Part shown: one piece after another, positions 3,379 through 18,951 of the stretch
How positions within the stretch are numbered: the first letter of the stretch is position 1
Layout: every line of letters begins with the position of its first letter
Virus record (IMG/VR): IMGVR_UViG_3300010430_000517
Location: 1-21,393 of that record
Reading direction: 5' to 3' (one strand)
Origin: a virus
DNA: 21,393 nt
Program-made: the position numbers and the translations under genes
The notes under the pieces: generated by a model
Databases searched by the model: none
What the model was told of the DNA's origin: nothing
What the model saw: the letters and a program-made list of their open reading frames with translations, nothing else

Positions 3379-3407
3379 TTGAATATGGGGGATACTTCGG
3401 TTATTGT
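3379..3407 (+). promoter_or_regulatory. Candidate promoter of the lysis cassette
   Basis: TTGAAT (3379-3384) and TATTGT (3402-3407) are separated by exactly 17 bases, each matching the sigma-70 consensus at four of six positions. The -10 element overlaps the palindromic operator at 3403-3418, as expected for repression by blocking polymerase. Confidence 0.4.
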
Positions 3408-3418
3408 CAAGCGACAAT
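3403..3418. promoter_or_regulatory. Palindromic operator O1 (TTGTC-N4-GACAA type)
   Basis: ATTGTC-AAGC-GACAAT, a perfect palindrome with 6-bp arms and a 4-bp spacer. It sits 19 bp upstream of the endolysin start and overlaps the candidate -10. Two further copies of the TTGTC-N4-GACAA core lie at 5616 and 18938. A half-site, ACCCGACA, follows at 3429-3436, next to the endolysin ATG. Confidence 0.65.
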
Positions 3419-3437
3419 TTAACGGAGAACCCGACAA

Positions 3438-4088
3438 ATGGAACAGCCTCGCGGCATTCGCAATCACAACCCCGGGAATATCGAGTACAACGGAACGCCG
3501 TGGCAGGGCCTTGCCGAGCCCAAGTCGGACGGCCGGTTCTGCCGGTTCGAAGGCCCGACATGGGGCATCCGCGCCATCGCCCGAACGCTCATCACCTATC
3601 AAGACAAGCACGGGCTGGAGAATGTCTATCAGATGATCTCCCGGTGGGCGCCGCCGGTCGAAAATAACGTGCAAGCGTATTCCGCCCACGCCGAGAAGGC
3701 GCTCGGCGTCGGGCCGAGCACGCCGATCAACGTTCACCGCTACGCCGTCATGCGGCCGCTGGTGGAGACGATCATCACGCATGAAAACGGCGTGATGCCG
3801 TACAGCGACGCGCAGCTCGACAAAGGTTTGCTGCTCGCCGGTATCGAGGCGCCACAGAAGCCGCTCACGCAGTCACGCACCGTTCGGGGCGGCCAGGTCG
3901 CCGGAACGGCCGGCACCGTCGCCGCGGTGGCTGGCGCCGTCGCGCAGGTTCAGCCCGCGCTGCCGGTCGTGGAGTGGATGCGGGACAATCTCGGCGTTGC
4001 GTTGATTATCCTCGGCGCGGCGGCGGTCGCCGGCGTCGGCTACATGATCTGGGCTCGCCTGGACGACCGGAACAAGGGGTTGCGGTGA
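3438..4088 (+). CDS. Endolysin / virion lysozyme-like protein (P5-type) with C-terminal membrane anchor
   Basis: A 216-residue protein opening with RGIRNHNPGNIEYNG followed by PWQGL and later ISRWAPPVENN. This is the signature of the phage 'structural protein P5' / lysozyme-like family that cleaves peptidoglycan. The catalytic-type domain spans about residues 3-135. An Ala/Gly/Val-rich linker follows, then a hydrophobic segment at about 186-205 and a basic end, suggesting a C-terminal anchor in the inner membrane. It is first in a cassette that contains spanins, so a lysis role is likely. The family also includes virion-associated lysins, so entry rather than exit cannot be excluded. GGAG at 3424-3427 is the ribosome binding site. 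Confidence 0.8.
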   Translation: MEQPRGIRNHNPGNIEYNGTPWQGLAEPKSDGRFCRFEGPTWGIRAIARTLITYQDKHGLENVYQMISRWAPPVENNVQAYSAHAEKALGVGPSTPINVHRYAVMRPLVETIITHENGVMPYSDAQLDKGLLLAGIEAPQKPLTQSRTVRGGQVAGTAGTVAAVAGAVAQVQPALPVVEWMRDNLGVALIILGAAAVAGVGYMIWARLDDRNKGLR

Positions 4089-4114
4089 TAAATTAACGCC
4101 AGGAGTAATATGCC

Positions 4115-5224
4115 ATGAGTTTTATTAAGTCCGTATATGCTTGGGTGATTGACGCAATCGGTTGGTCTAAGCCCGACAGGGGGACCACCCCCACGGTAAA
4201 CATACCTGCCAAGCGCCCCCGGCGGAGCCTCCGTTTTAAAAACGACATACTTGACCAGCTCCCCCGCCACATGAGCGTGGCTAGGCGTTTGAAAAAGTTA
4301 GACCACGACGCCTACGCAAGATTCGCCCGAATAGGCGCCGTAATATGCGGCGAAGACACCAAAGCGCTGGCGAACAGGCTGGACGTACAGGTTGGGTGCA
4401 TACCTGCTTTTGGGGCGGTCTTCCTTGACCCGGAGGAAAAGGATGACACGTTCAAGATGGACTTCTTGTCGTTTACCAGAGTTGCCCCAACTGATCGCGC
4501 GGGCGTAGAGCCGTTTGGCGGGGACGTGTTTCTTGTATCAGCGCTGTACACTTGCAAAGGGTCGTCGCCTTACCCCGCGCAGTTTGCGGTCGGGGTCGCT
4601 CCCGGCGGGAAGATAAAAGCGCTAAAATGCAAGATAGAGCATAAAATTCGGCTACACCATCGAAACAGGAAAAAAGGGGATTCCGCGTTTTCCACTATAA
4701 CCAAGAGCGAGTACGGGTACCCCCCTTTGTTGTGCGAGCCCTTGGGTAAGGACACCCGGAGCGACCTGTTTAAGAAGGGGAGCCCCGACGAAAGGGCCAC
4801 GTATTTGTTTAGCGTAGCGGTTAACTTTTACGTTACAGCAGCTATTTCGGGGCTTCGGGTGACAGCCAAAAAAGGTAACACGCTGGCGAGTTTCTTCGTC
4901 CCGATGACGGATACGGCGTATTTTTTCCAGGACAGAACGAAAGCGGCCGATCCTTCGACCGGGAAGACAAAGAGGATATTCCATATCGTCAGGGCGCATT
5001 CCAGGACGACGGAAGAAGGCGTGTCTTTCGTGAAGTCCCATTTCAGGGGGCTGCGTAAGTTTAGCTGGAACGGGTACGAAATTACGGTGTCCCAGCAGGG
5101 GCTTCATCATGCAGATCTTCTGCAGTTCGGAGGGTCCGCTATTATGGGCGACAACGCTCCCCGGAAAGGAACTATGTCCTCCGAGGAACTAACTTCGGAG
5201 CTAGAAAGGCACCTGGCCGCATGA
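4115..5224 (+). CDS. Unrecognised 369-residue protein inside the lysis cassette
   Basis: I do not recognise this protein. It starts after a good AGGAG (4101-4105) and ends in an ATGA overlap with the i-spanin, so it is integrated into the cassette's translation. The N-terminus has a short hydrophobic/aromatic stretch (about residues 3-17, SFIKSVYAWVIDAIGW) then a basic region. The remainder looks like a mixed alpha/beta soluble protein with scattered Cys but no zinc-finger spacing. Codon use appears more AT-rich than its neighbours, with more ATA, AAA and TTT codons, resembling the gene at the left edge. This suggests separate acquisition. Possible roles are a moron, an exclusion factor or an unusual lysis factor; none is shown. 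Confidence 0.75.
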   Translation: MSFIKSVYAWVIDAIGWSKPDRGTTPTVNIPAKRPRRSLRFKNDILDQLPRHMSVARRLKKLDHDAYARFARIGAVICGEDTKALANRLDVQVGCIPAFGAVFLDPEEKDDTFKMDFLSFTRVAPTDRAGVEPFGGDVFLVSALYTCKGSSPYPAQFAVGVAPGGKIKALKCKIEHKIRLHHRNRKKGDSAFSTITKSEYGYPPLLCEPLGKDTRSDLFKKGSPDERATYLFSVAVNFYVTAAISGLRVTAKKGNTLASFFVPMTDTAYFFQDRTKAADPSTGKTKRIFHIVRAHSRTTEEGVSFVKSHFRGLRKFSWNGYEITVSQQGLHHADLLQFGGSAIMGDNAPRKGTMSSEELTSELERHLAA

Positions 5225-5466
5225 CATTCATCTCTTCCCTGCTCTCCGGCGTCGGCCTGAAGATCGCCGGCGTAGCGGCAGCCATCATCGCCGTTCTCGC
5301 GGTTTTATCCGGCGCGAAATCCGCCGGCCGCAAAGCCGAGCGCGTCGACGCGATGCGCAGATCCCTTAAATCCGTGGAGGTTCGCAATGAAGTGGAACGT
5401 GAAGTGCAGCGTATTGGCGGCGACGATGCTCGCCAGCGCCTGCTCGACCGCTGGTCCCGCGATTGA
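5221..5466 (+). CDS. i-spanin-like (Rz-type) inner membrane protein
   Basis: An 81-residue protein with one N-terminal membrane segment (about residues 13-30, IKIAGV-type, Ala/Ile/Val-rich). A charged helical periplasmic domain follows and ends in DARQRLLDRWSRD. The ending and topology match small i-spanins of rhizobial and other alphaproteobacterial phages. Such proteins span the periplasm together with an outer-membrane lipoprotein to fuse the two membranes at lysis. The start ATG overlaps the preceding stop by four bases (ATGA). The o-spanin gene begins inside this gene in another frame, the classic Rz/Rz1 architecture. Confidence 0.8.
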   Translation: MTFISSLLSGVGLKIAGVAAAIIAVLAVLSGAKSAGRKAERVDAMRRSLKSVEVRNEVEREVQRIGGDDARQRLLDRWSRD

Positions 5467-5602
5467 TTCATCCTGCGCCTGGGTGAAACCTATTTTTGTC
5501 AGTAAATCCGACACTTTGACGGACGAGACGGCGCGCTCTATTCTGACGCACAATGCGGCCTGGGAGCGCAATTGTGACGGAGGGCATAGCCCTTCTGGAT
5601 AA
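5387..5602 (+). CDS. o-spanin-like (Rz1-type) lipoprotein, overlapping the i-spanin gene
   Basis: A 71-residue protein with a lysine-containing N-region, a short hydrophobic core and the lipobox LASA-C, which would put the lipidated Cys at residue 19. The mature part is short. The gene starts inside the i-spanin gene in a different frame, behind a near-perfect GGAGG (5376-5380) six bases from the ATG, and runs 136 bases beyond the i-spanin stop. It would be exported, lipidated and anchored in the outer membrane, pairing with the i-spanin. The mature domain carries two further Cys residues. Confidence 0.8.
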   Translation: MKWNVKCSVLAATMLASACSTAGPAIDSSCAWVKPIFVSKSDTLTDETARSILTHNAAWERNCDGGHSPSG

Positions 5603-5615: not shown

Positions 5616-5629
5616 TTGTCGATTGACAA
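5616..5629. promoter_or_regulatory. Palindromic operator O2 upstream of the repressor operon
   Basis: TTGTC-GATT-GACAA, the same arrangement as O1 and O3. A perfect -35 hexamer TTGACA (5623-5628) overlaps its right arm, but no convincing -10 is found (CATATC at 5645-5650 is the best, at 16 bp). Binding here would allow the repressor to control its own operon. Confidence 0.6.
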
Positions 5630-5691: not shown

Positions 5692-6120
5692 ATGCCTAAA
5701 CACCAACCGTTTCACAATGGACCGCCTACGGAAGAACCGGCCTTTTCGCCCGAAGATGTTCGAGCGGAATTCGCACGCCGGCTGAGCGCGTACCTGGACG
5801 AGAGGGGTTGGAACCAGAGTGAACTGTCTCGCCGCGCATCGGAGAGATTGCAAGACGGCGAAGTCAGCCGGGACAACATCAGCAGCTACGTTCGCGGCAA
5901 ATCCTTGCCCGGGCCGCGCTTCCTGGGAGCCATTTGCAGGGCTCTCGGCGTCAAGGCGGAAGACCTGATACCGAAGCGCATGACGCGCCAGGTCGACTCC
6001 CGCAACGCCAAGGTGGAGTTCCGGGCCGTAGGCGACGGCAAAGCGTGGTTGCGCGTCAACCAGGCCGTCTCCTGGGACACCGGTACGAAGATCCTGCAGC
6101 TCTTGCAGGACGAGAAGTAA
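5692..6120 (+). CDS. XRE-family HTH transcriptional regulator, probable phage repressor
   Basis: A 142-residue protein with a Cro/CI-type helix-turn-helix at about residues 27-90. LSAYLDERGWNQSELSRRAS is followed by ISSYVRGKSLPGPRFLGAI and the LGVKAEDL ending typical of XRE domains. The C-terminal part (about 95-142) has no serine-lysine peptidase motif, so RecA-stimulated self-cleavage as in lambda CI is not supported. It is the first gene of an operon with excisionase and integrase, which suggests it controls lysogeny. The three TTGTC-N4-GACAA palindromes are its most likely targets, by inference. The stop overlaps the excisionase start (TAATG). Confidence 0.8.
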   Translation: MPKHQPFHNGPPTEEPAFSPEDVRAEFARRLSAYLDERGWNQSELSRRASERLQDGEVSRDNISSYVRGKSLPGPRFLGAICRALGVKAEDLIPKRMTRQVDSRNAKVEFRAVGDGKAWLRVNQAVSWDTGTKILQLLQDEK

Positions 6121-6410
6121 TGTTCAGCACCGGCCGCGCCGCTACGGCTCTCGGGGTATCCCCTAAGACAATAGAGCGATGGCGCGCGGCCGGGACGATC
6201 AAACCGGCCTATACCACGCCCGGCGGGCACGCACGCTACGAGGAGTCCGAAATATGCCGCGTCCAGAAAGAGGCGTCCCTGATCTCCAGCGGCGCACTAA
6301 CGGATATTTCTATGCCACATGGTACGACGGCGCCAGCCGACGTTCAAAGGCACTCTCCCTTCGTACAAAGTCTGCTACGGAAGCGCAGGCTCGCTTCGCC
6401 GCCTTCCTAG
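6120..6410 (+). CDS. MerR-type HTH excisionase-like protein
   Basis: A 96-residue frame starting at the ATG that overlaps the repressor stop. Residues 1-45 form a MerR/Xis-type winged helix: STGRAATALGVSPKTIERW, then a G-T-I-K turn and PGGHARYEESEI. Such small proteins bend attachment-site DNA and direct the integrase toward excision. Residues 46-96 overlap the integrase gene for 157 bases in another frame and have no recognisable domain, so the functional part is the N-terminal half. The overlap puts the integrase ribosome binding site inside the coding part of this gene. The domain call is fairly sure; the recombination role is inferred from position. Confidence 0.75.
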   Translation: MFSTGRAATALGVSPKTIERWRAAGTIKPAYTTPGGHARYEESEICRVQKEASLISSGALTDISMPHGTTAPADVQRHSPFVQSLLRKRRLASPPS

Positions 6411-7300
6411 CCCAAGGCGCCGACTTCTACGACAACTCGGCCCAGGGGGTCAGCGTCAAGGCGGTTATAGAGAGCTATCGCCGTGGGCACGTTCATCCGA
6501 ATGTGGTCGATACCGAGCGCTTCGAATACGCCGCGACGCAGATCGTCGGGTTCTTCGGCGACACGCCGGTAAGGGATATCGATATCGACGCCGGCGAGCG
6601 GTATATCGAGCACCGGCTGGACGAGGGGATAGCGAAAAGCACCATCAAGCGCGAGATGTCGACGCTCGTCGCCGCGGCGAATTTCTGCGTGAAGCGCCGC
6701 GTGATAAAGCCCGACGAGATCCCGACGATCGAATACCCGAACGTCGATACGAACCGGGAAATATGGCTTTTTAAAGACGAGTTCAGGATTTATCGCGACA
6801 CGAAAAACGCCGATATCCGAGACTTCATAGACACGATGTATTTCACGGGCTCCCGCCGCCGGGCGGTTGAGCAGTTATCGTGGAACCAGGTCGACCTTGG
6901 CAACGGGCTGATCCGGCTCGCCAAAGACGGCGAGAAGAAGACGAAGAAGCGCCGGCCGACGGTGCCGATCGTGCCCGCCCTGCGTGAGATACTGGAGCGG
7001 CGGGAGATGCTGGCGGATACGGATTACGTGTTCGGGCACAGCGGGTCGCGCTACAAGTCGCTGGTGCGCCGGGCGAGCAATGCAGGGCTGCTCTATCTGA
7101 AGGCGCGCGACGGGCGGCCGGAGGGGCGCTTTTGCCCCCATACGATCCGGCACACCCGCGCGACGCATCTGTTGCAGGATGGCGTCGATATCTACGCCGT
7201 GGCGAAGCTGCTGGGCGATACCATCCGAACCGTCGAAACGACGTATGGGCACGCCGCTGCGGGGCTCACCGCGGATGCCGTTTTGAAGAGTGGGTTTTAG
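6254..7300 (+). CDS. int: Tyrosine-type site-specific integrase
   Basis: A 348-residue phage integrase. An arm-binding N-terminal domain (about residues 15-55, GYFYATWYDG) is followed by a SAM-like core-binding domain (about 65-150) and a C-terminal catalytic domain. Catalytic residues visible are Arg201 in FTGSRRR, a Lys in the beta-hairpin near 224-235, His296-x-x-Arg299 in HTIRH, and Tyr331 in TTYGH. The usual second His/Trp position (LGH) reads LGD, with Asp322. The start at 6254 is preferred over the upstream in-frame ATG at 6179 because AGGAG lies at 6241-6245. The gene converges on the methyltransferase gene, overlapping it by four bases. The likely att site is 0.87 kb downstream. Confidence 0.9.
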   Translation: MPRPERGVPDLQRRTNGYFYATWYDGASRRSKALSLRTKSATEAQARFAAFLAQGADFYDNSAQGVSVKAVIESYRRGHVHPNVVDTERFEYAATQIVGFFGDTPVRDIDIDAGERYIEHRLDEGIAKSTIKREMSTLVAAANFCVKRRVIKPDEIPTIEYPNVDTNREIWLFKDEFRIYRDTKNADIRDFIDTMYFTGSRRRAVEQLSWNQVDLGNGLIRLAKDGEKKTKKRRPTVPIVPALREILERREMLADTDYVFGHSGSRYKSLVRRASNAGLLYLKARDGRPEGRFCPHTIRHTRATHLLQDGVDIYAVAKLLGDTIRTVETTYGHAAAGLTADAVLKSGF

Positions 7301-8055
7301 GCGAACATCGCGCTAACCGAAGCGCGAAATACCCTCGTTTTCGCTATCTCGTAATAATTGGCGTCAAGCTCAATGCCGATGAACGCGCGGCCTAATTTGG
7401 CGCACGCTTCGCCAGTCGTGCCGCTGCCCATCGTGAAATCCAGCACCAAATCCCCCGGGCGGCTGTACGTTTTTACGAAGAACTCCATCAGCGCCAAAGG
7501 CTTCTGCGTTGGGTGGAGGTTGGACGTCTGCTTGTCGCTCGGAAAAACCTGAACGCTGCGCGGATAGCGGCTGGTGCTGTCGTACTTCGTCACACCAGAC
7601 TCGTCCCCATAGCACTCGCTGCCGTTTTTGGCCCGGTCAGCGACGGCTGTTTTCCTGGCGTGCCCGTGGGTCATTTGAGGGTCAAAGAAAGGCGCTTTGC
7701 GGTAGAAAACGAGAGCGTTTTCATGAGCTTTCATCGGCATCTTCTTGGCGTTCAGATGGCCGGTAGCGGATGTTTTTTCCCAAATCCACTCGTATTTTAG
7801 CTCAGCAAGATTACTACACCCTAGAACCTTATCGAATGGTGTCTGTGAAAAGAGAACAACTGCGGTATTGTCTTTCCGGGGGAGTGCGGCCCACATACGA
7901 TCTAGATCGATTGGAGAATCCCACCGGCACTGCGTTGTTCCGTATGGCATATCAGCCAGGACAAGATTCGCAGCCGGGAGCCCGCGCAGAACGTCTAGGC
8001 AGTCTGCGTTGTAAAGCGATATATCGCCAAACTGGAGACAAGGTTTTTGTGTCAT
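7297..8055 (-). CDS. DNA methyltransferase, probable N6-adenine, beta class
   Basis: A 252-residue protein with the catalytic motif ADMPYGTTQ (about residues 34-42, a DPPY variant). The AdoMet-binding motif near the C-terminus, DFTMGSGTTGEA (about 206-217), is followed by GIELD. Catalytic motif first and AdoMet motif last is the beta-class order shared by N6-adenine and N4-cytosine enzymes; the GTTxCxWD context favours adenine. No restriction enzyme lies nearby, so it is an orphan, likely for self-protection or regulation. The start at 8055 (MTQKPCLQF) is chosen; 8097 is an alternative. The frame stays open to 8235, but that extension reads antisense through the tRNA fragment and is not credible. 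Confidence 0.85.
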   Translation of the reverse strand: MTQKPCLQFGDISLYNADCLDVLRGLPAANLVLADMPYGTTQCRWDSPIDLDRMWAALPRKDNTAVVLFSQTPFDKVLGCSNLAELKYEWIWEKTSATGHLNAKKMPMKAHENALVFYRKAPFFDPQMTHGHARKTAVADRAKNGSECYGDESGVTKYDSTSRYPRSVQVFPSDKQTSNLHPTQKPLALMEFFVKTYSRPGDLVLDFTMGSGTTGEACAKLGRAFIGIELDANYYEIAKTRVFRASVSAMFA

Positions 8056-8103
8056 TTTTGCAGCGTTACGCGCCAATTCGTGTCGTATATGTCGCATTGT
8101 GTC

Positions 8104-8144
8104 GGAGTTTCTGGCATTTAACTTACTGTTATCGCAGAAACTCC
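8104..8144. repeat. Perfect 10-bp inverted repeat left of the attachment core
   Basis: GGAGTTTCTG (8104-8113) and CAGAAACTCC (8135-8144), 21 bases apart, just upstream of the methyltransferase and left of the tRNA-like core. It could be a pair of integrase or excisionase arm sites, or an operator of the methyltransferase gene. Confidence 0.5.
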
Positions 8145-8148
8145 ATCC

Positions 8149-8163
8149 ACCCGACACCCGACA
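8149..8163 (+). repeat. Tandem ACCCGACA direct repeat and its inverted partner
   Basis: ACCCGACA occurs twice with a 7-base period at 8149-8156 and 8156-8163. CCCGACAA at 8157-8164 is mirrored by TTGTCGGG at 8246-8253, so the pair brackets the tRNA-like core. The arrangement resembles arm sites around a phage attP; the word is also the half-site of the operators. Confidence 0.5.
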
Positions 8164-8166
8164 ATA

Positions 8167-8216
8167 CTGTCTTCGGGAGGCAGGGGCCGCAAGTTCAAAT
8201 CTTGCCACTCCGACCA
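8167..8216 (+). other. attP: Probable attP core: 3' half of a tRNA-Pro(CGG) gene
   Basis: These 50 bases fold as the 3' half of a tRNA. They comprise an anticodon stem CTGTC / GGCAG (one G-U pair) around TTCGGGA (anticodon CGG), a variable loop, T-stem GCAAG / CTTGC with loop TTCAAAT, acceptor strand CACTCCG, discriminator A and encoded CCA (8214-8216). Position 72 is G, implying the C1-G72 start typical of tRNA-Pro. The 5' half (acceptor strand, D-arm) is absent upstream. Tyrosine integrases commonly recombine within the anticodon-to-3'-end half of a tRNA and restore it. Phage genes lie on both sides, so this is attP of a free phage rather than attL or attR. Confidence 0.8.
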
Positions 8217-8238
8217 AACAACCCCTTGAAAACACTAG

Positions 8239-8514
8239 TTAAATGTTGTCGGGCGAGTGTCGAAAACCGTCATCCGACACCGGCTTTGAGTCGCTATGTG
8301 CGGCGCTACGGTAGCTTCTTATCCCCCGAGCCAGTTCCTCGTCGGCGCATTGCAGTTGGTGGCAATCCTCGGCCAACGCGATGTTCTCCAGCATATCAAG
8401 CTGAGAGTTATGTATCGCGAGAAGGTCCATATACATCCGGGCCAATTCGCGTTTCGACTTGTTTTCCAGATACCGCATAGTGATCGGCCCGCCGTGAAAT
8501 TCCACAATGCTCAT
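8239..8514 (-). CDS. Small helical phage protein, unknown function
   Basis: A 91-residue protein, probably helical, with a charged N-terminal half (NKSKRELARMYMDLL) and an Asp/Ser-rich C-terminus. It starts in an ATGA overlap with the DNA polymerase stop, so it is the last gene of the leftward replication operon. It ends 22 bases to the right of the tRNA-like core. No motif is recognised. Its 3' end doubles as repeat-rich att DNA, so its C-terminal sequence may be constrained by DNA function. Confidence 0.65.
   Translation of the reverse strand: MSIVEFHGGPITMRYLENKSKRELARMYMDLLAIHNSQLDMLENIALAEDCHQLQCADEELARGIRSYRSAAHSDSKPVSDDGFRHSPDNI
8257..8280. repeat. Inverted repeat right of the attachment core
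   Basis: GTGTCG (8257-8262) and CGACAC (8275-8280), 12 bases apart, overlapping the 3' end of the 91-residue gene. The arms contain the TGTCG / CGACA word seen elsewhere around the att region. Confidence 0.35.
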
Positions 8515-10577
8515 TTCCTATACCTTTCTTCGCAGAAACCGTCGGCCGCGATCGGCAGCCCCGGCGCCCATTTGGGCTGTTGAACCATGAGTTCCAGAAA
8601 CTTGTCGTAATCCTGATCGGGCCGGATCTCGCCCACGACCTCATCGTGGATCGTCACCGTCACTTCGAAACCTGCGGTTTCGACCCGCAGCATCGCTTCG
8701 GCCATGATGTCGCGCGCGACCGCCTGCGTGATGTTTTCGGCGAATAGCCCGCCATATGCCGATTTGACTGCCCACTTCTTCGTGAAGCTGTCGACGCCCT
8801 CATAGACGATGGCGTCCTCCGTGCCCCACGGCTTCTTCATGGGCTCGATCCGCGGGTACGCATAGGCGATGCACCGGCCGCTCGGCAGCCGGCAGAATAG
8901 GAAAGAGCCGTTCTTGAGATAGACGACGTTCCCGACCGCTACCTTCATGCCGGGGTTCTCGACCGCCAGCCACGCGCCGCTTGCCGGGCGGTAATCACCC
9001 ATCGGCTTGCCTTCAAGCGCCCACCAGTATTCGACCGTCTTTTGGTTGGCGTCGCGCCATGCGAGTTTAACCGTCTCGCCGGCGCCCCACGCCTTTTTCG
9101 TCATGCCGGATCGAACCCCGCGCTCGTCCCAGCTCTTGCGAACCTTCTCTTTGTGCGTATCGGTCGCATTCCGCCAGACGAGATCGAACACCTCTTCGAG
9201 ATCGACGCCGTAATTGGCCGCCATCGCGCCATAGGCCGACGCGCCGCCGCCGAAGCCCAGCGCGAGTTCCGACACCTTGCCCACTTGGCGCTCGGTCGGA
9301 TGATCTTTCTTGTTGATCGGTTTTCCGAAGATGCCGCTCGCCGCTTGGCAGTAGATATCCTCGTCACGGCGAAAGACGCCCAGCTTCGCCTCGTCGCCAG
9401 CGAGCCACGGCAGCACGCGCGCTTCGATCTGGCTGAAATCAGCCGCGATGACCTTCCGGCCCGGCGGCGCGGCGATCAGCCCGCGAATGCTATCGGCGGC
9501 GGCCTGCATCGGGTTTCCGTGCATCATCTCGACGATATCGACGTTCCCGGTCGACATCGCCTTGATGACATCCGGGATGTCGTCGAATACCGGCCTGGGC
9601 AAGTTCTGCAACTGCGCGCCCCGCGCCGCCCAGCGGCCAGTGTTGGCGCCGTGGTACTGCAAGTTGCCGCGCATCCGCCCATCGTCGCAGCGCATCGCCA
9701 GCATCTTGTCGATCTTCGCCGTCGATGATTTCGCGCCCTCTTTCCGCAGATCAAGAGCGCGCCGGCAGCTGGCCGGCAGGTCGAGCGCGAGCAGATCGTC
9801 AAGCTGGTCTTTGGCGAGCGAGCGCGCCGGAACGCCTTGCAGGACGAGCCACGATTTCAACTGCCCCGGGTTCGAGACGGCGCTCACTTCGCCGTCCGTC
9901 ACGTCGTACATTTCTTCGTTCAGCCGTTCGGTTGCGTCTGCAACTACTTTGCGGGCGGCAGGCGCCAATTCCTCATCGATGAAGACGCCGCGATCGTTGA
10001 TGCGTTGATCCATGAACCAGATTTGCTGTTCCAGCGGGCGCAGCGGCAGAAGGCGCTCGGCCAAGGCGCGTTCGACAACCACGTCTTGTTTGCAATAGGC
10101 GTAGAGACGTTCTTTCTTCTCTTCGGTGTCCCACCAAACCGGCTCGTCACCCTCCATGCGACGCGGCTTGCTCATCTGCAGCATGAGTCTATGACCGGGC
10201 TGGTCTTTGCGGTAATCCAGCCCAAGGGCGACCGCCGCGTCGTCTAGCTTCCCGGGGAGCGCCATAGCGTACCCCATCGCCATCGTGCAGCGGAACTTCT
10301 CAAGCGGCGGAACGGGAAACCCGTAGCGCGGCCCGAGAATATGGATGAAATCGAGCCGTTCAAAATTCGCGTTGTGGGCGAATATGAACTCGGCCTCTTT
10401 GATCGCGTGTTTGATGTCGCGATCGTCCAGATCCGGGTGCCACAACTTCACCTCTTCGTCATCGGCGCCGAAGGCGGCGCACCAGTTATCGGTGTGCCGG
10501 TCTTCGAAATACTTGTAGGCGCCTATTTTCACCAAATCGAGGACGGCCATCGTCTCGACATCGAAGTGGAGGTGCAT
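8511..10577 (-). CDS. Family A DNA polymerase with 3'-5' proofreading exonuclease
   Basis: A 688-residue phage replicative polymerase of the PolA family. The exonuclease domain shows ExoI D6-V-E8, ExoII HNANFE (68-73) and ExoIII YCKQDV (161-166). The polymerase domain shows motif A ADFSQIEAR with catalytic Asp380, motif B with Arg430 and Lys434 before a GFGGG turn, and motif C His-Asp-Glu (644-646). There is no 5'-3' exonuclease domain, as usual for phage polymerases of this size. All catalytic residues are present. The start overlaps the stop of the upstream small gene by one base (TGATG). It lies near the end of the leftward operon encoding helicase, nuclease and SSB-like protein. Confidence 0.95.
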   Translation of the reverse strand: MHLHFDVETMAVLDLVKIGAYKYFEDRHTDNWCAAFGADDEEVKLWHPDLDDRDIKHAIKEAEFIFAHNANFERLDFIHILGPRYGFPVPPLEKFRCTMAMGYAMALPGKLDDAAVALGLDYRKDQPGHRLMLQMSKPRRMEGDEPVWWDTEEKKERLYAYCKQDVVVERALAERLLPLRPLEQQIWFMDQRINDRGVFIDEELAPAARKVVADATERLNEEMYDVTDGEVSAVSNPGQLKSWLVLQGVPARSLAKDQLDDLLALDLPASCRRALDLRKEGAKSSTAKIDKMLAMRCDDGRMRGNLQYHGANTGRWAARGAQLQNLPRPVFDDIPDVIKAMSTGNVDIVEMMHGNPMQAAADSIRGLIAAPPGRKVIAADFSQIEARVLPWLAGDEAKLGVFRRDEDIYCQAASGIFGKPINKKDHPTERQVGKVSELALGFGGGASAYGAMAANYGVDLEEVFDLVWRNATDTHKEKVRKSWDERGVRSGMTKKAWGAGETVKLAWRDANQKTVEYWWALEGKPMGDYRPASGAWLAVENPGMKVAVGNVVYLKNGSFLFCRLPSGRCIAYAYPRIEPMKKPWGTEDAIVYEGVDSFTKKWAVKSAYGGLFAENITQAVARDIMAEAMLRVETAGFEVTVTIHDEVVGEIRPDQDYDKFLELMVQQPKWAPGLPIAADGFCEERYRK

Positions 10578-10771: not shown

Positions 10772-10782
10772 CGTTTATCTCC

Positions 10783-10974: not shown

Positions 10975-10990
10975 CCTACAAACTCCCTCA

Positions 10991-11031: not shown

Positions 11032-11037
11032 CTCCGG

Positions 11038-11627: not shown

Positions 11628-11638
11628 ATCGCCCTCCC

Positions 11639-12268
11639 TTACGCGAACGGGTCTTCGTCGGAGCCAGACGCGCTATCGTCGAACATATCGTCCGGCGAGT
11701 CGGCGGCCCCTTCGACGGCTTCGAACTGATCGCTTGCCCGCGGCTTGGCGCCGCCGATCGGGTCGTCATGCCGCAAGAGCTGGACATTCTGCAGCCCGAC
11801 AGCAACGCCCTTGTTCGTTTTCACGTCGAACCAGAATGGGTCGGAGCTGACACGCGCCCAGCGTCCCGAGTAGATTTCCGTGTCGTAGTCATCCGACGAC
11901 ACGTCTTTCCCGTTGGCAAAGATGAACCCGGGCTTCTTCGCCGCCGTGAGCCGCAAAAGAGTCCATCCTTCGAATTCCGCGCCGGCATTTTTCTCGACCG
12001 GATCGAGAAACTTGTCCTCGACGTACTTTTTGGCCTTCGCCGTTTTCTCGGCATCGTCGCCGGAGACCTTGGTCATCGCGACGTCGAACATCTTCTTCTT
12101 CAACAGCTTCAAATCGCTGCCGGGCGGGAAAAGCATCGACAACGGATACCGCATCTCGCCTTTTTCGTTCTTCTTGCCTTTGTGGCAGTCGTCGGCGAAG
12201 CTCATCCGCCCTTCGGGTGTGATGATGTCACCGTTTGGCGCGACGGCGCATTTTTTCAAGTCAGCCAT
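11639..12268 (-). CDS. DUF2815 single-stranded-DNA-binding-like protein
   Basis: About 209 residues, of the DUF2815 family, found in many phages next to DUF2800 and PolA genes and often described as a single-stranded DNA-binding protein. Family-like segments are RMSFADDCHKGKKNEKGEMR, YPLSMLFPPG, and FEGWTLLRLTA followed by YSGRWARVS. The acidic tail ends DDSASGSDEDPFA, resembling the acidic aromatic-ended tails with which SSB and T7 gp2.5 contact partner proteins. It probably coats unwound template DNA. AGGAA is eight bases before the ATG at 12268; an ATG two codons earlier (12274) is too close to it. Confidence 0.85.
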   Translation of the reverse strand: MADLKKCAVAPNGDIITPEGRMSFADDCHKGKKNEKGEMRYPLSMLFPPGSDLKLLKKKMFDVAMTKVSGDDAEKTAKAKKYVEDKFLDPVEKNAGAEFEGWTLLRLTAAKKPGFIFANGKDVSSDDYDTEIYSGRWARVSSDPFWFDVKTNKGVAVGLQNVQLLRHDDPIGGAKPRASDQFEAVEGAADSPDDMFDDSASGSDEDPFA

Positions 12269-12279
12269 TTTCATGTTTC

Positions 12280-13416: not shown

Positions 13417-14126
13417 TACTCGGCATCCTCGTAGAACTCGGCGCGGATCTCCTTCAGCTTGGCGTAGCAGGCCGGGATATCCTCTTCAGCGACATCGGCG
13501 AACTTCTTGACGCCGAAGCCTTCGTTCAGGACGGTGCGAAGCCGGGACGAAATGGCGATCTGCATCGCCTGGTCGTCGTGGTCGTAAACCATGCTTTCGC
13601 CGTAACTCTTGAGGTCGCCGAGCGTGAGGGGTGCGTCGCCTTCTTCCGGCACGCTTTCCGGCGGTGCGGCGTCGGCTTCCTTGGTCTGTTCGGCGATCGC
13701 TTCCGTGCGGGGCTCAAGCGTCGCCTCGCGGATCGCGTCCTGGTGCTTCTTCGGCAGGCGGCCGTGCTGGCGCTCCCACCACCCCACGTCGTAGGGCTCG
13801 CCCGACGTGGCGATCTTCTGCAGCTCGTCGCGCAGCTTCTCGGCGTTCTTGCCGCGGACGACGGAGAGGTCTTCCGTTTCTTCGTTGGCCGGTTCTTCGC
13901 TAGGCATGGCGGAGTCGGCGACCTGTTCGGCTTCTTCCTTCGTCATCGGCGGGCCTTGCTGAGCGCACAGCTCAGCTTTCTCATAATCAACTTTGGTTAC
14001 GCTGCCGGCTTCATCCGAGACTAGTAGTTTCGGGCCGTCCCCGCCCGCGAACGACAGCAACATCGCCGCGACGCGCGAGACTGTCGCCTGCGAGTCTTTC
14101 TCGGTAAGTGTGATATTTATGTCCAT
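13416..14126 (-). CDS. Phage protein between helicase and nuclease, unknown
   Basis: A 236-residue acidic protein. The first 40 residues (DINITLTEKDSQATVSRVAA) look folded, residues about 75-110 and 155-175 are Glu/Pro/Ala-rich and probably disordered, and the C-terminal 60 residues look like a second folded, helical part. I do not recognise a family. The start at 14126 is preferred for its GGAG eight bases upstream. An alternative ATG at 14159 overlaps the helicase stop (TAATG), a coupling style used elsewhere in this phage, and would add 11 residues. Position between SNF2 helicase and exonuclease suggests a recombination or replication accessory role. Confidence 0.75.
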   Translation of the reverse strand: MDINITLTEKDSQATVSRVAAMLLSFAGGDGPKLLVSDEAGSVTKVDYEKAELCAQQGPPMTKEEAEQVADSAMPSEEPANEETEDLSVVRGKNAEKLRDELQKIATSGEPYDVGWWERQHGRLPKKHQDAIREATLEPRTEAIAEQTKEADAAPPESVPEEGDAPLTLGDLKSYGESMVYDHDDQAMQIAISSRLRTVLNEGFGVKKFADVAEEDIPACYAKLKEIRAEFYEDAE

Positions 14127-14158
14127 TTGTCTTTCTCCATTTCTCTCTAAAACCGACA

Positions 14159-15427
14159 TTAAAGGCCCAAAGCCGCGATATCCGCCGTCTTGCGCGCCAC
14201 GGCCGCCTGTATCTTCTCGTCGATCGAGCCCGGGATCGTCGCGAAGTAGGCGATGCACCCTTTATTCTGACCGATCCGATGAATGCGTTTGGCGGCTTGT
14301 TCGTTCTCGGCCGGCACCCATGACGACTCCACGAAGATAACCGTGTTCGCCGCCGTCAAGGTGAGTCCCGTTCCGGCCGCCTGCATCTGCCCGACGAAAT
14401 AATCCGCTCTGCCTTCCTGAAAATCGCGCACCGCCGTCTCGCGATCCGCCGGTTTCGTCGCGCCGGTAAGCTCTACACTTTTCGCTAAACCCGACATCAA
14501 GGCCACAATAACGCCGCGATGCTGGGCGAACAATACCGCTTTCTTGATTTCGCTCTCCCGCAACCACTCCAGCACGCCGTTTACCTTGGCGAGCCCGGTG
14601 ACGCGCCGGAGCGTGGCGACGTGCGGCGCGATCGCCCGCAGCGCGTCGAGCGTGTCGCCTCCTTTCGCCATCGCGCGCTCAACCTGTTCGCGCTCGTCAT
14701 CCGGCAGCCCAGCCAAATCGCCCGCGACCGGCAATGTGTCATAGCGCATAGGCGGCAGATCCTTGAGCACGGTCTTCACCTTCCGGCGCATCACATGCCC
14801 CTTCAAACTATCGCGCAGCTTGTCGAGGTTCTTGCCTTTGACGATTTCCAGCCCGAACCCGTTGTTCCGCGTCTCGCAATAGCGATTCACGAATTGCCAA
14901 TAGGTCATCACCTTGTCTTCGCGGAAGGTGATCGCGGCCGGAAAGAGCGTCTTCATCATCGCGTAAAGCTCGCTCGGGTTGTTGGGCATCGGCGTACCGG
15001 TCAGCGCCCAGGCCCCGCCGCTTTGCTTCGCTATCGGGCCGTAGACGGCTTTCGTGCGCGCCGCCTTCGGGTTCTTCAGAAAATGCGCTTCGTCGAGGAC
15101 CAACAAATCCCAATCGATCGCCGCCAGCTTCGTCTTATTGCGCGTCGCATAATCGTATGAGCAGACGTTGACCTTGCCGGCGACCGGCGAATCCTTACCT
15201 GTTTCCAGCACAACGCACTCGCCCGCTTCGCAGGCGCGCACCTCCTGCGGCCAGACCTGGCGCACCGACGCCGGGCAGATGACGAGGACGGACTTGTAGC
15301 CCTTCGCCCGCCACGCGAACGCCGCCTGCGTCGTCTTGCCCAGGCCCGGCTCGTCGAACAGCCCGGCGTAGCGGTTGCTCGCCAGGAAGGCGACGCCGGC
15401 CTTCTGGTAGGGGAAGAGTTGTCTCAT
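14159..15427 (-). CDS. SNF2/SMARCAL1-like DNA helicase-translocase
   Basis: A 422-residue superfamily 2 ATPase of the SNF2 type. Motif I is DEPGLGKT (25-32), motif II DEAH (112-115), motif III TGTP (143-146) and motif VI QAAKRIHRIGQ (377-387), with GTGLTLTAAN as motif V. HRIGQ is diagnostic of SNF2 proteins. At this size it is a bare motor without extra domains, like phage relatives of SMARCAL1 that remodel forks rather than nucleosomes. Such genes often accompany PolA, DUF2800 and DUF2815 genes in phages. The start overlaps the preceding stop (ATGA). Confidence 0.93.
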   Translation of the reverse strand: MRQLFPYQKAGVAFLASNRYAGLFDEPGLGKTTQAAFAWRAKGYKSVLVICPASVRQVWPQEVRACEAGECVVLETGKDSPVAGKVNVCSYDYATRNKTKLAAIDWDLLVLDEAHFLKNPKAARTKAVYGPIAKQSGGAWALTGTPMPNNPSELYAMMKTLFPAAITFREDKVMTYWQFVNRYCETRNNGFGLEIVKGKNLDKLRDSLKGHVMRRKVKTVLKDLPPMRYDTLPVAGDLAGLPDDEREQVERAMAKGGDTLDALRAIAPHVATLRRVTGLAKVNGVLEWLRESEIKKAVLFAQHRGVIVALMSGLAKSVELTGATKPADRETAVRDFQEGRADYFVGQMQAAGTGLTLTAANTVIFVESSWVPAENEQAAKRIHRIGQNKGCIAYFATIPGSIDEKIQAAVARKTADIAALGL

Positions 15428-15813
15428 TTCTTAAAGTACAGAACCGGTTCGATGTCTTCTTCGTAGCGGCTATACCCTACGAATTCACCCGGCCACTTTT
15501 CCAGGTATTGATCGATCCAATCGAAGAATTTTTCGATCTCGTCCCCGTAGTTTTTGAGGTCGGCGCGAACGACGAGACAGTACGCCTTACGTATCGCATC
15601 ATAGCGAAATTCCTGAGTCGAAAACGGGATGAAGTAATAAGAGCTACAGTTGAGAACGGAACCCCACCTATCGCACTTGAATAGATCGTGGTTCGGGGTT
15701 TTCTCCGGGGCGGATTCGCCTTCACCTATCATGTAGCGGATTATCTCAATAACATCGCCAGGCGTGTCACTCCGCAACGGCGCGGCGATTACAATTTCAG
15801 TATACATACCCAC
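15424..15813 (-). CDS. Conserved phage protein, MGMYTE family
   Basis: A 129-residue protein of a widespread but uncharacterised phage family that begins MGMYTE and contains an RYMIG stretch, a C-x-RWGSVL segment, SSYYF and LKNYGDEIEKFFDWI. The start is GTG at 15813, because GGAG lies nine bases upstream and the family's MGMYTE opening is kept. The ATG two codons later is too far from it. It sits between the resolvase and helicase genes and is coupled to the helicase by ATGA. Function unknown. Confidence 0.8.
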   Translation of the reverse strand: MGMYTEIVIAAPLRSDTPGDVIEIIRYMIGEGESAPEKTPNHDLFKCDRWGSVLNCSSYYFIPFSTQEFRYDAIRKAYCLVVRADLKNYGDEIEKFFDWIDQYLEKWPGEFVGYSRYEEDIEPVLYFKK

Positions 15814-15825
15814 GGCATTCTCTCC

Positions 15826-16269
15826 TTACTGCTCAAAACTCCAATACAGGATCGCCAAAGCGTCGGCCTCGTTATCGTCGACAACCTCATGCCCTCGCTC
15901 GATAGCCGAAGCGATCATCGCTTCCTTCGGCGCGTTGCCCTTGCCGGTCCAGAATTTCTTGATCGTGCCCACGGGCACGCCGGCGTAGGGTATCGCCTTC
16001 TCTTCGCAATAGGCGGTCAAACACGCCATCAGCCCGCCGTAGACATGCGCGGCGTCCGTGCCGCGGTGCCGGCGCACCTCTTCGAAGTAGACCTGGCTCA
16101 CGCCAAGCGAGTCGCTGATCTCGTCCAGCCACTTGCGGAACCGCACGTAGCGCATCCCGCCGCCGCTGTACCGGTCGTTCTTGAACGACTCGGCGCCGGA
16201 CAGAATGTTATCGTCGCTGGCAATCGCCCAGCCGGTCGTCGTCCCCAGATCGAGTGCTAGAATAGGCAT
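15826..16269 (-). CDS. RuvC-like Holliday junction resolvase
   Basis: A 146-residue RNase H-fold protein. The first strand LALDLGTTTGWA carries Asp7, VYFEEV carries Glu63/Glu64, and DDNEADALAI carries Asp132 and Asp136, giving the four-acid RuvC active site. The basic segment IKKFWTGKGNAPKEAM before the last acids is typical. It would resolve branched replication or recombination intermediates before packaging. The start at 16269 has AGGAG eight bases upstream; the frame is open ten codons further. It is slightly shorter than cellular RuvC, as usual for phage versions. Confidence 0.88.
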   Translation of the reverse strand: MPILALDLGTTTGWAIASDDNILSGAESFKNDRYSGGGMRYVRFRKWLDEISDSLGVSQVYFEEVRRHRGTDAAHVYGGLMACLTAYCEEKAIPYAGVPVGTIKKFWTGKGNAPKEAMIASAIERGHEVVDDNEADALAILYWSFEQ

Positions 16270-16327
16270 GTTACTGTCTCCTTGACCCTGGTTTCCCACC
16301 TTTGTTTCCGCCTAAAATGCGGCGTTC

Positions 16328-16888
16328 TTATGGCGCCTGGCGGTCGTGCCGGGGTACCGCAGCCCGCAAATCGGCGTAGAATTCCGTAAAACCCGACAGC
16401 GAATTGACCACGAGATTAGTGTTGTCTTCTAAAGGCAAGCCCTTTTCGCTCGAATGCCCGTCAAAAGTGCTATGACTCACGGTTGTGGAATCGACCTCGA
16501 TATGCACGCGAACGCCGCCGAGTTCCGTCGCGGCCGCCAGCTCGTTGGCGAACCGGCAATCGTCTGTGACGACGTTCACGCCGGCGCCGAGCAGCCGCTT
16601 CACTTTCGCGCGCCAGACCCCAACCCAGAAATCCTCGCCGATACAATCCCGGCCCCACTCAGTGCCGAGCGTCTGCATCGCGTGCCGCGGCGTGTTCCCG
16701 CAAAGCAGATCGCAGGGACGTTCTTTGTTATGCCCCTCGATCTCGGAATCGGTTAGCCCGATCGCGCGCAGCATGTTCTTGAGCGGAGCGGCGAACTTCA
16801 CGATCTCGTAGCCGTGATGCTGGGCGAGGTAGTTCGCGGCTGTCGACTTCCCGGCGCCGGCTTTGCCGGTGAGGATGATGAGAGTCAT
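16328..16888 (-). CDS. Deoxynucleoside monophosphate kinase-like P-loop protein
   Basis: A 186-residue protein with Walker A GKAGAGKST at residues 8-16 and the segment VVTDDCRFANE, the TDxRxxNE-type motif of phage dNMP kinases. HAMQTLGTEWGRDCIGEDFW is also typical (LGTEWGR...DFW). It likely phosphorylates dNMPs to feed the phage polymerase. Its start overlaps the stop of the Lar-like gene (ATGA). A 58-base gap follows before the resolvase start and contains only that gene's ribosome binding site. Confidence 0.85.
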   Translation of the reverse strand: MTLIILTGKAGAGKSTAANYLAQHHGYEIVKFAAPLKNMLRAIGLTDSEIEGHNKERPCDLLCGNTPRHAMQTLGTEWGRDCIGEDFWVGVWRAKVKRLLGAGVNVVTDDCRFANELAAATELGGVRVHIEVDSTTVSHSTFDGHSSEKGLPLEDNTNLVVNSLSGFTEFYADLRAAVPRHDRQAP

Positions 16889-17208
16889 TGGCTGCCACCG
16901 TGTTTGGAGAGAGCGACTTCGGCCTTGCGCGCAATCTCATGCAATGCGTCGCGAAAGGCATTGTTGGGCGCGCAGACGACGCTGGCCGACAGTTTCGCAT
17001 TGCCACCGATCTCCCGCAGCGCCCCCGCCAATTCCGCATTCGTGGCACGGAGGCGGTCTTCCTCGGGGCGGGTGTTCCAATCGCCACCAGCGTAGTGGCC
17101 CGGCCCGGTCGCACAGCAGTCCATGCAAAAGCAGAAAACAACCTTGTCACCGCCGCCGCTGTTGATGTCCTTGCTGCCGCAAAACGGACACGCCTTCAAC
17201 TCGCTCAT
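16885..17208 (-). CDS. Lar-like restriction alleviation zinc-ribbon protein
   Basis: A 107-residue protein. Its N-terminus ELKACPFCGS, followed by CFCMDC and then a WNTRP-like segment, is the Lar-family zinc ribbon (CPxCG...CxxC...WNxR). Rac-prophage Lar modulates type I restriction and modification in E. coli. The C-terminal half is helical and unrelated. It is coupled at both ends by ATGA overlaps. Anti-restriction activity is known for few members, so the role here is a family-level inference. Confidence 0.75.
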   Translation of the reverse strand: MSELKACPFCGSKDINSGGGDKVVFCFCMDCCATGPGHYAGGDWNTRPEEDRLRATNAELAGALREIGGNAKLSASVVCAPNNAFRDALHEIARKAEVALSKHGGSQ

Positions 17209-17444
17209 CGGTCTTCCCCCAGTGCTGCGCGCTTGTGAAATTCGCAGGCCGTGCAGTCAGGTGTGAAATGCCCCTTGCCGCCATTTTCTAGGCAGAAGCC
17301 TTCGCAAAGCTGATCTTCCAGCCATTTCTTCGCTTTGTGGAATTGCGCATTCTCAGCCTTGAGCCGGGCGTTTTCTTCCAGGACTGCCGGCATGTTCTCG
17401 ACAATCGCGGACACCGCGCCTTTGAATTTGTCCAACTCGCTCAT
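17205..17444 (-). CDS. Small coiled-coil and Cys-rich protein
   Basis: A 79-residue protein. A coiled-coil helix (EENARLKAENAQFHKAKKWL) is followed by a Cys cluster CEGFC, DCTACEFH that could bind one zinc ion. The ATG at 17444 is chosen over the adjacent one at 17447 because AGGAG stands six bases from it. Its first 12 bases are the same as those of the Lar-like gene (ATGAGCGAGTTG). Function unknown; helix plus zinc-binding tail suggests a small adaptor. Confidence 0.65.
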   Translation of the reverse strand: MSELDKFKGAVSAIVENMPAVLEENARLKAENAQFHKAKKWLEDQLCEGFCLENGGKGHFTPDCTACEFHKRAALGEDR

Positions 17445-17472
17445 CATAATCTCCTGTCCGGGCTATTCCGCT

Positions 17473-17712
17473 CTAGTACGGGATGTCCCAACTGGGCATG
17501 ACCTTCGTGATGTCCGCGCCCTTGTTCCTTCGTTTCGGCTTCTCGCCCTTTTTGCGAGGATCGGTGTATCCGCAAACTCGGCAGGTCTGTCCCGGCCAAA
17601 GCCGCGTGGCGTTCCGGTTGGGTGGGCACCCGGGGCACTCGATTGTGTGCTTGTCCCGTTCCTTTCGACGGTGCTCTTTCGCGTCCCGCCAGTAGTCGCC
17701 TACATCACCCAT
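17473..17712 (-). CDS. Small basic zinc-ribbon protein
   Basis: A 79-residue basic protein with two CxxC pairs, CPGC and CRVC, 16 residues apart, the spacing of a zinc ribbon. Lys/Arg-rich flanks follow (RKKGEKPKRRNKG). It may bind nucleic acid. It is preceded by AGGAG that belongs to the 28-bp repeat described at 17718. Confidence 0.65.
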   Translation of the reverse strand: MGDVGDYWRDAKEHRRKERDKHTIECPGCPPNRNATRLWPGQTCRVCGYTDPRKKGEKPKRRNKGADITKVMPSWDIPY

Positions 17713-17717
17713 CGTCT

Positions 17718-17745
17718 TCTCCTATTCCGCAGCCGCGCGGGCTAG
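17718..17745 (-). repeat. Gene-end / ribosome-binding-site repeat, copy 1
   Basis: A 28-bp sequence identical to 18045-18072. On the minus strand it encodes the last residues LARAAAE and stop of the upstream gene, and its TAGGAG contains the ribosome binding site of the next gene. A 22-bp part also occurs on the plus strand at 20774-20795. Confidence 0.85.
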
Positions 17746-18039
17746 CTTGTGCATCCGGCGAACGCACGAAAGACAAAGGTTGAACGTTCTGCCTAAGTCA
17801 CTATCGCCGCACTCAATCGAGTCCCCTATGGTGCGGTCACATTCATCGCATGTGCCGTGCGTCCAGGATTTGTTCCCGATAATCCGATCTACTTCGTCGG
17901 GGTCTGGGTTGGGTGGAAGGGCGTCCAGTTGTTCGCCGATAACGGCCTTTTCCGGGAACCGATCATACTTGCCGAAATATTGGCGTGCCCATCTGGACGC
18001 CGCCACATCCGCTAGTTCCTGCCGGGTGGTTAGCTTCAT
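17722..18039 (-). CDS. Zinc-finger-like phage protein
   Basis: A 105-residue protein. The N-terminal half is helical (RQELADVAASRWARQYFGKYDRF-like). Residues about 62-92 carry CDEC, a single Cys and CLSC, the layout of a treble-clef or DksA-like zinc finger. It ends in LARAAAE, encoded by the 28-bp repeat. Function unknown. Confidence 0.65.
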   Translation of the reverse strand: MKLTTRQELADVAASRWARQYFGKYDRFPEKAVIGEQLDALPPNPDPDEVDRIIGNKSWTHGTCDECDRTIGDSIECGDSDLGRTFNLCLSCVRRMHKLARAAAE

Positions 18040-18044
18040 CGTTC

Positions 18045-18072
18045 TCTCCTATTCCGCAGCCGCGCGGGCTAG
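18045..18072 (-). repeat. Gene-end / ribosome-binding-site repeat, copy 2, attached to a gene remnant
   Basis: Identical to 17718-17745, 327 bp away. Here the coding part (LENLARAAAE and stop) has no gene in front of it: the frame is stopped by the TAA of the HD-domain gene a few codons upstream. It looks like the leftover 3' end of a deleted or duplicated gene, kept as the ribosome binding site of the 105-residue gene. Confidence 0.8.
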
Positions 18073-18087
18073 ATTTTCCAGGCCATC

Positions 18088-18699
18088 TTATTCACCCCTC
18101 CGACGCGCTATCGCCGTCTGCAGCGCCGACCCGAAGTGCAGCCGCGCCAACGGCGCCAGCATCTCGGCCTCGGCGAATTCGAACAGCTCCGCGTCGAACT
18201 CGCCGTGCCGCGCGGGCGTGCATCCGGCCCAATCGCAGCGCCAATGCGGCGGCGCGACCGTCGCCAACTCGATCCGCATCGCGTTGAAGTCAGCCTCCTT
18301 GACGCAATCCGGCAGCTCTGGCGCGACCCCGAACTTCTCGGCAATCGCTTCGAAGATGGGTGTCTCGACGTGGGAGATCGCCGGAACGGCGCGTTTCATC
18401 GGCGACGTATTGTCTCCGATATATGCCTCCGCGGCGTCGTGGAGCAGCGCTTCCAGCCGGTATTCCGGTGGCACCAGCTTCGCGACCAGCACGCTATGCT
18501 GCGCGACGCTGTAATGCTCGCGTGACGGCGCGCTGTAGTGGCCGCCGTAGCGCACGATCCGGGACAGCGACGTGATGATGTCGCCGGCGTCGATGTCTTC
18601 CGGCTTGGGGTCGAGCGGGTAGAACGGCCTACCGCTGAACACCTGCATGTTCGGCCCGCGATCCGCGTCGTGGCCGACAGTATTTATTTCGAGTGGCAT
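18088..18699 (-). CDS. HD-domain 5'-deoxynucleotidase, YfbR-like
   Basis: A 203-residue HD-superfamily phosphohydrolase. The metal-binding residues appear as His68 in HYSVAQHS, His87-Asp88 in LLHDAAEAY and Asp137 in KEADFNAM. The N-terminal SGRPFYPLDPKPEDID and IVRYGGH segments are typical of the YfbR-like phage family. YfbR removes the 5'-phosphate from dNMPs. In a phage it may shape nucleotide pools together with the dNMP kinase in the same operon. Start 18699 has GGAGAG five bases upstream, overlapping the upstream stop; an internal Met18 is possible. Confidence 0.87.
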   Translation of the reverse strand: MPLEINTVGHDADRGPNMQVFSGRPFYPLDPKPEDIDAGDIITSLSRIVRYGGHYSAPSREHYSVAQHSVLVAKLVPPEYRLEALLHDAAEAYIGDNTSPMKRAVPAISHVETPIFEAIAEKFGVAPELPDCVKEADFNAMRIELATVAPPHWRCDWAGCTPARHGEFDAELFEFAEAEMLAPLARLHFGSALQTAIARRRGE

Positions 18700-18701
18700 C
18701 T

Positions 18702-18908
18702 CTACTCTCCATCGGTTTTCCCGTATCCCGCCATGTAGGCGTAGATCTTCCGTGTCACCCGAAGGGACGGCGAGCGGCCGCCTTCGAGCCTGTTCATGAG
18801 CCCGCTATCCCCGACCGCGGCGAGCCCGAAGGCGCTGATCGCAACGTCGTTGGTACGGCAGAACTCTCGGATATGACGGATCAGTGCGTCTTCGGTTGGT
18901 AGTTGCAT
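18702..18908 (-). CDS. Cro-like small HTH regulator, first gene of the leftward operon
   Basis: A 68-residue protein of a common alphaproteobacterial and phage HTH family. A first helix EDALIRHIREFC is followed by ISAFGLAAVGDSGLMNRLEGG and RSPSLRVTRKIYAYM. The ATG at 18908 lies directly after AAACCCGAC with no ribosome binding site, so a leaderless or very short leader is possible. A GTG at 18929 with AGG upstream would add seven residues. As the first gene next to the divergent control region it is well placed to act as Cro against the repressor encoded at 5692. Confidence 0.75.
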   Translation of the reverse strand: MQLPTEDALIRHIREFCRTNDVAISAFGLAAVGDSGLMNRLEGGRSPSLRVTRKIYAYMAGYGKTDGE

Positions 18909-18915
18909 GTCGGGT

Positions 18916-18944
18916 TTGTAAACCAGCACAGCTTACCTTGTCAA
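18916..18944 (-). promoter_or_regulatory. Candidate leftward early promoter
   Basis: A perfect -35 TTGACA reads leftward at 18944-18939, overlapping the left part of operator O3. The downstream -10 is unclear (TTACAA at 18921-18916 is poor). The call rests on the -35, the operator and the start of a gene-dense leftward operon. Confidence 0.35.
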
Positions 18945-18951
18945 CCGACAA
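18938..18951. promoter_or_regulatory. Palindromic operator O3 in the divergent early region
   Basis: TTGTC-AACC-GACAA, the third copy of the palindrome, lying between the leftward and rightward early transcription units and overlapping the leftward -35. Half-sites flank it: TGTCGGGT at 18908-18915 and ACCCGACA at 18963-18970. Confidence 0.65.

Follow-up and report, generated by a model that had tools for sequence, protein, structure and literature searches.

The stretch of DNA analysed here, referred to below as the window, is the 21,393-nucleotide (nt) IMG/VR record IMGVR_UViG_3300010430_000517, which derives from an environmental sample and represents a temperate phage that has not been cultivated. 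It carries three exact copies of the palindrome TTGTC-N4-GACAA, at positions 3404–3417 (site 1, upstream of an endolysin gene), 5616–5629 (site 2, upstream of the gene for an XRE-family repressor candidate) and 18938–18951 (site 3, between divergent early units), which we here evaluate as candidate operators of that repressor. A preliminary description of this DNA had listed three copies and none elsewhere, and a pattern scan of the window bore this out, although the first copy starts at 3404 and not at 3403. The same held when the scan was extended to 35,213 bases of the phage, comprising the window and an overlapping contig (L022/G003) that is 99.95% identical to it over 3.9 kb and contributes 13.8 kb of structural genes: no fourth copy was found in these bases, with the join of the right end of the window to that contig lying outside the scan, and none of the three copies fell inside a gene. 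The non-coding fraction of this genome is only 4.5% (about 95% being coding), and the three intergenic copies lie in separate promoter regions, 2–13 kb apart, as is found for dispersed-operator repressors of the P1 C1 type.

In dinucleotide-shuffled windows, 0.02 copies of TTGTC-N4-GACAA were expected per window, compared with the three observed. A look-elsewhere test using 5-bp arms with at most two G or C and a spacing of 0–12 gave a triplet of some motif in 1 of 150 shuffles, which is less extreme than the former value; once GC-rich arms were allowed as well, triplets of some motif were common. When read in one orientation (the minus, plus and minus strand for sites 1, 2 and 3, respectively), the three sites have TTGTCGnTTGACAA in common, agreeing at 13 of 14 bases, and each of them then reads TTGTCG-n-TTGACAA, with a TTGTC half-site placed 2 bases upstream of a -35 hexamer, TTGACA. 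The phage holds nine TTGACA words, and those of the three sites are the only ones to come directly after TTGTC-NN (compared with none in 300 shuffles). Two other such words, in a gap between structural genes, lack TTGTC, which is therefore no regular companion of TTGACA in this phage; these two stand 47 bp apart at about 13360–13790 of contig L022 and are possible late promoters outside the regulon. It could be argued that the triplet is a coincidence, with a common -35 word having unrelated flanks, given that a search across many palindromes always yields some repeats, but the rarity of the element, its intergenic placement, the match of 13 of 14 bases in one orientation and its recurrence in relatives make this highly improbable.

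The promoter contexts of sites 2 and 3 were straightforward. Site 2 (TTGTCGATTGACAA, plus strand) includes a candidate -35, is followed after 62 bp by the XRE start codon and is directed at the XRE-xis-int operon. Site 3 (TTGTCGGTTGACAA, minus strand) is directed at the early leftward operon. A rightward promoter-like match (TTGACC-N17-CATATT, 18960–18988, plus strand) is found 9 bp from site 3 and has an extra CGACAA half-site inside it. More CGACAA and GCGACA half-sites were seen within 18943–18985, at steps of about 10 and 20 bp to the right of site 3 and overlapping the same promoter-like match. At the DNA level, the region around site 3 matched nothing in phages. An inverted repeat of another kind, TTGACA-N10-TGTCAA, was noted at 20419–20440 within an open reading frame (20187–20792).

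Site 1 (TTGTCGCTTGACAA, minus strand) precedes the start codon of the endolysin gene by 20 bp. The preliminary description had placed all three copies in promoter-like gaps, with the first, before the lysis cassette, overlapping a -10 element; this placement was right for sites 2 and 3, whereas for site 1 the plus-strand candidate with its -10 inside the site (TTGAAT-N17-TATTGT) matches at only 8 of 12 positions, as counted by hand, making a lysis promoter here possible but weak. The better promoter-like match (TTGACA-N17-CATATT, 10 of 12) overlaps the site on the minus strand, at 3382–3410, and runs leftward into a facing intrinsic-terminator-like hairpin at 3305–3332 (minus strand), which could also serve the plus strand. 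Between site 1 and that terminator we noted a candidate leftward RNA of about 75–79 nt (3376 to 3298, minus strand) having a 5' hairpin; it folded better than all of 200 shuffles (z -4.2). Site 1 might thus drive a repressor-controlled small RNA that is antisense to the leader region separating the endolysin gene from the last virion gene and gives an OOP-like tuning of lysis, in addition to promoter occlusion. We regard this as improbable, and the hairpin at 3332–3305 may be no more than a terminator for the gene upstream. No match to an Rfam family was found.

The most likely binder of the sites is the 142-residue protein encoded at 5692–6120 (plus strand), which has a helix-turn-helix (HTH) domain together with a small C-terminal strand-strand-helix domain. 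It scored 34.7 bits against Pfam HTH_31 (cut-off 27) and 31 bits against HTH_3 (cut-off 23), as expected of an XRE regulator, and both the structure model and Foldseek agreed with an HTH of the Cro/CI type. The families that it matches (PHROG 3 and others) are of repressor type. No domain match was found in it beyond the HTH, and thereby no peptidase domain as would be expected for S24-type autocleavage.

A second candidate binder is the 68-residue HTH-like protein encoded at 18702–18908 (minus strand; ATG start, with an alternative GTG at 18929), which is the first product of the early leftward operon and is Cro-like by position. The sites could be bound mainly by this protein as a Cro-like early repressor, either alone or in competition with the XRE protein. 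Its gene lies directly downstream of site 3, like cro in lambda, and its single-sequence structure model shows four helices with an HTH-like pair at residues 24–32 and 35–42, giving weak Foldseek matches that include HipB, the 434 and P22 repressors and C-proteins. However, confidence in this model is moderate, and none of those matches is significant. In addition, neither Pfam nor PHROG gave a match to the protein, and searches of viral contigs and of phages returned no relative, whereas the TTGTC-NN-TTGACA module recurs in phages carrying relatives of the XRE protein. We therefore consider a main role for the 68-residue protein unlikely, although less so than the antisense RNA discussed above.

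Direct searches of viral contigs for relatives of the 5692 protein, or of the DNA polymerase, gave none. Searching with an alignment as query, we found relatives of the 5692 protein at 67 viral loci and 7 genome loci (bacterial contigs). RHph_N65 and a Microcystis phage also carry relatives. Within 200 bp upstream of 47 non-redundant XRE relatives there were 105 TTGTC/GACAA words, to be compared with a mean of 18 and a maximum of 31 in shuffles. A width-14 palindromic motif search from which the window was left out returned tTGTCgatcGACAa, with a likelihood of 74 compared with 23–38 in 12 shuffled controls. The exact module TTGTC-NN-TTGACA occurred 7 times in 20 genomes carrying XRE relatives, with 0.45 expected and the reversed pattern occurring 0 times. 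The seven were mostly located at the repressor promoter or in other regulated gaps, including the XRE promoter itself at L070 and L074 and an XRE-upstream or divergent gap at L046 and L048.

Further support came from RHph_N65, for which we found no paper in the literature search. Its annotated "cro-like repressor" EVC08_015 (MN988536) is a homologue of the 5692 protein (38% identity), is likewise encoded beside an integrase and has related intergenic sites elsewhere in the genome; it differs in that its gene and the early operon diverge from one shared gap, which holds dyads of the GGACA-N3-TGTCC type. Five of the 10 best matrix matches in RHph_N65 were intergenic in a genome that is 7.6% non-coding (p 5e-4), a value to be read with some caution as N65 was among the 46 training sequences of the matrix. 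The matches at 20719 and 32017 precede genes whose orthologues in G031 carry a similar site at a similar distance, and the match at 36916 lies in a divergent gap beside a likely terminase small subunit gene, with similar sites before the orthologue in G023 and G016. Judged by this shared placement in the sequences, scattered sites at several promoters are therefore a property of the repressor family, beyond the window alone. Separately, GGACA-N3-TGTCC dyads were seen by the repressor promoter in several genomes of the RHph_N65 group (G016, G023, W01, G012 and G019), with further genomic copies. Another palindrome, similar to TTGTYGATCGACAA, was seen about 1750 bp downstream of the repressor start, just past the integrase gene and often in a convergent gap (L062, L069, L070, L077, L081, L083, L084 and L100), perhaps representing attP or a terminator.

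The early promoters of the RHph_N65 group share TGTAGG-TTGACA, and this speaks for an alternative in which the three sites are activator or extended-promoter boxes of co-activated promoters, with TTGTC-NN-TTGAC read as a direct repeat at -35. All three sites are oriented with the -35 and can be read in that way, and lambda CII is known to use TTGC repeats at -35. Against such a reading, each of the three copies is at the same time a perfect 5+5 dyad, the protein proposed as regulator belongs to a repressor-type family, and the half-site arrays around the XRE promoter fit better with autorepression. Activation at these sites thus seems to us about as improbable as the leftward antisense RNA.

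Several observations weigh against assigning the three sites to the XRE repressor. The 20 genomes holding the seven exact modules had been picked for their XRE genes, and the -35 hexamer accounts for some of the matches and for part of the similarity. The strongest motif upstream of the family, with likelihoods of 112–149 when using other widths and an unconstrained model, was the opposite dyad GACAA-N-TTGTC, of which there is no good example in the window nor in those relatives sharing its recognition-helix type (RDN). A spacing scan showed TTGTC pairs to be enriched at many spacings, N4 not being alone. The nearest relatives of the 5692 protein (L028–L032, L034 and L037) lacked the exact module, relatives of the lysozyme (L010 and L011) showed no such site, and the -35 of site 1 is directed leftward, to the strong terminator-like hairpin on the minus strand and not to the lysis genes. 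Owing to the stronger opposite dyad and the enrichment at many spacings, we do not regard the width-14 search as proving the exact dyad independently. A possible co-variation was noted between the recognition-helix residue and the base adjoining ACAA (RDA: 18 T and 10 G; RDS: 16 G and 2 T), which is suggestive but was discounted because the RDA and RDS groups are clades. A scan of viral contigs for TTGTCGNTTGACAATA gave 65 contigs, where the neighbouring genes were found only in the same phage, and this added no support.

Taking the evidence together, we find it probable, with appreciable room for doubt, that one promoter element under repressor control is present at all three sites and that these constitute a dispersed regulon of the 5692 XRE repressor. 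That they are repressor-controlled promoter elements as such is very probable. The comparison with relatives supported this in that the module and its half-sites recur at regulated promoters, but not in the sense that the closest protein relatives would have the exact element. The preliminary description had suggested a single palindromic operator type bound by one XRE repressor governing immunity, replication and lysis. Its perfect 5+5 dyad is there, yet is inseparable from the -35, is directional and is not the commonest dyad of the family. Its choice of the 5692 protein as the best candidate is strengthened by the pile-up of half-sites and the recurrence of the module, whereas its extension to lysis is weakened by the promoter at site 1 facing away. 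Direct control of lysis is the weakest of these claims and follows from proximity only, because the -35 of site 1 is directed away from the lysis genes to a terminator.

Binding by the XRE protein, its acting as a repressor and not as an activator, and whatever effect there may be on lysis are what we infer, and a regulon of this kind would work as follows. As the TTGTC half-site is located 2 bases upstream of the -35 hexamer, the 5692 protein bound in the prophage to the TTGTC/GACAA arms, probably as a dimer, would cover the -35 and keep RNA polymerase off. Through site 2 it would regulate its own XRE-xis-int operon, through site 3 it would shut the early replication operon in the prophage, and on site 1 it may also obstruct transcription just upstream of the endolysin gene that enters the lysis cassette. 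Upon induction, the repressor would presumably be lost by means other than classical autocleavage, considering that no peptidase domain was found in it. The 68-residue protein may serve as a Cro-like competitor.

The genes flanking the sites were identified as follows. The endolysin (3438–4088, plus strand; PHROG 873, E-value 1.3e-62) is the first gene of a lysis cassette that is real, also including an Rz-like spanin (5221–5466, plus strand; PHROG 1026) and, judging from position and signal-peptide look only, an overlapping Rz1-like open reading frame (5387–5602, plus strand); a 369-residue protein encoded inside the cassette, at 4115–5224, had no Pfam or PHROG match. Following the XRE gene are those for a MerR/excisionase-like HTH protein (6120–6410) and a tyrosine integrase (6179–7300), both on the plus strand and identified by domain and family matches. 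The early leftward operon (7297–18699, minus strand) encodes replication and nucleotide enzymes, namely a nucleotidase, dNMP kinase, RuvC, SNF2 helicase, exonuclease, single-stranded-DNA-binding protein, DNA polymerase A and methyltransferase. Within it, a 44-nt direct repeat (89%; 17710–17753 and 18037–18080, minus strand) spans a gene end, a ribosome-binding site and the next start codon, and is a duplicated gene junction. The end of the integrase gene faces the end of this operon, as in G011 and, if its ends join, in G007, and consequently the XRE and early promoters are 13 kb apart with a site of their own each.

Of the known systems, this arrangement works like those of P1 C1 and SPbeta MrpR, and it lacks features that define the lambda switch and the mycobacteriophage stoperators. 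In lambda, the operators overlap the -35 boxes in clustered triplets and the early operon begins with the gene for a small HTH protein. Our sites similarly overlap the -35 and a small HTH-like protein comes first in the early operon, but the divergent repressor and early operon with clustered operators of the CI/Cro system are not found, the sites serving 5692 and 18938 being single and widely separated, and the repressor candidate differs in lacking a detectable peptidase domain. The C1 repressor of P1 has 22 dispersed operators with an asymmetric 17-bp consensus; it controls replication as well as its own gene and, by way of Lpa, the late genes and those for lysis (PMC8546580). The likeness is that of one repressor (here a candidate) with operator copies scattered over the genome, the difference being that the window has three copies with the dyad joined to a -35. 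In SPbeta, the SPBRE was found by sequence as a repeated intergenic element and later shown to be the site of the master repressor MrpR (PMC10516654), again with repeated intergenic sites at many promoters, although MrpR has a tyrosine-recombinase fold rather than an XRE HTH. The stoperators of Cluster A mycobacteriophages number up to about 30 per genome, are 13 bp long and asymmetric, mostly keep one orientation relative to transcription and in many cases fall inside genes (PMC6550527); they too are repressor sites along the genome with one at the repressor promoter, whereas the window has three sites, all of them intergenic and with a perfect dyad.

Control by a dispersed-operator prophage repressor, as with P1 C1, is thus an already known kind of phage control and the principle is not new. 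Searching the literature with the motif words gave nothing relevant, and in the papers within reach of that search no operator was described for the family of small repressors to which the 5692 protein belongs. For this family, which is widespread among phages and has no peptidase domain, the present analysis offers an operator prediction: the TTGTC-NN-TTGACA module and dyads of the form GACAA-N-TTGTC. If the proposed regulon is true, one type of site would tie together the dormancy, the replication and possibly the lysis of an uncultivated temperate phage.

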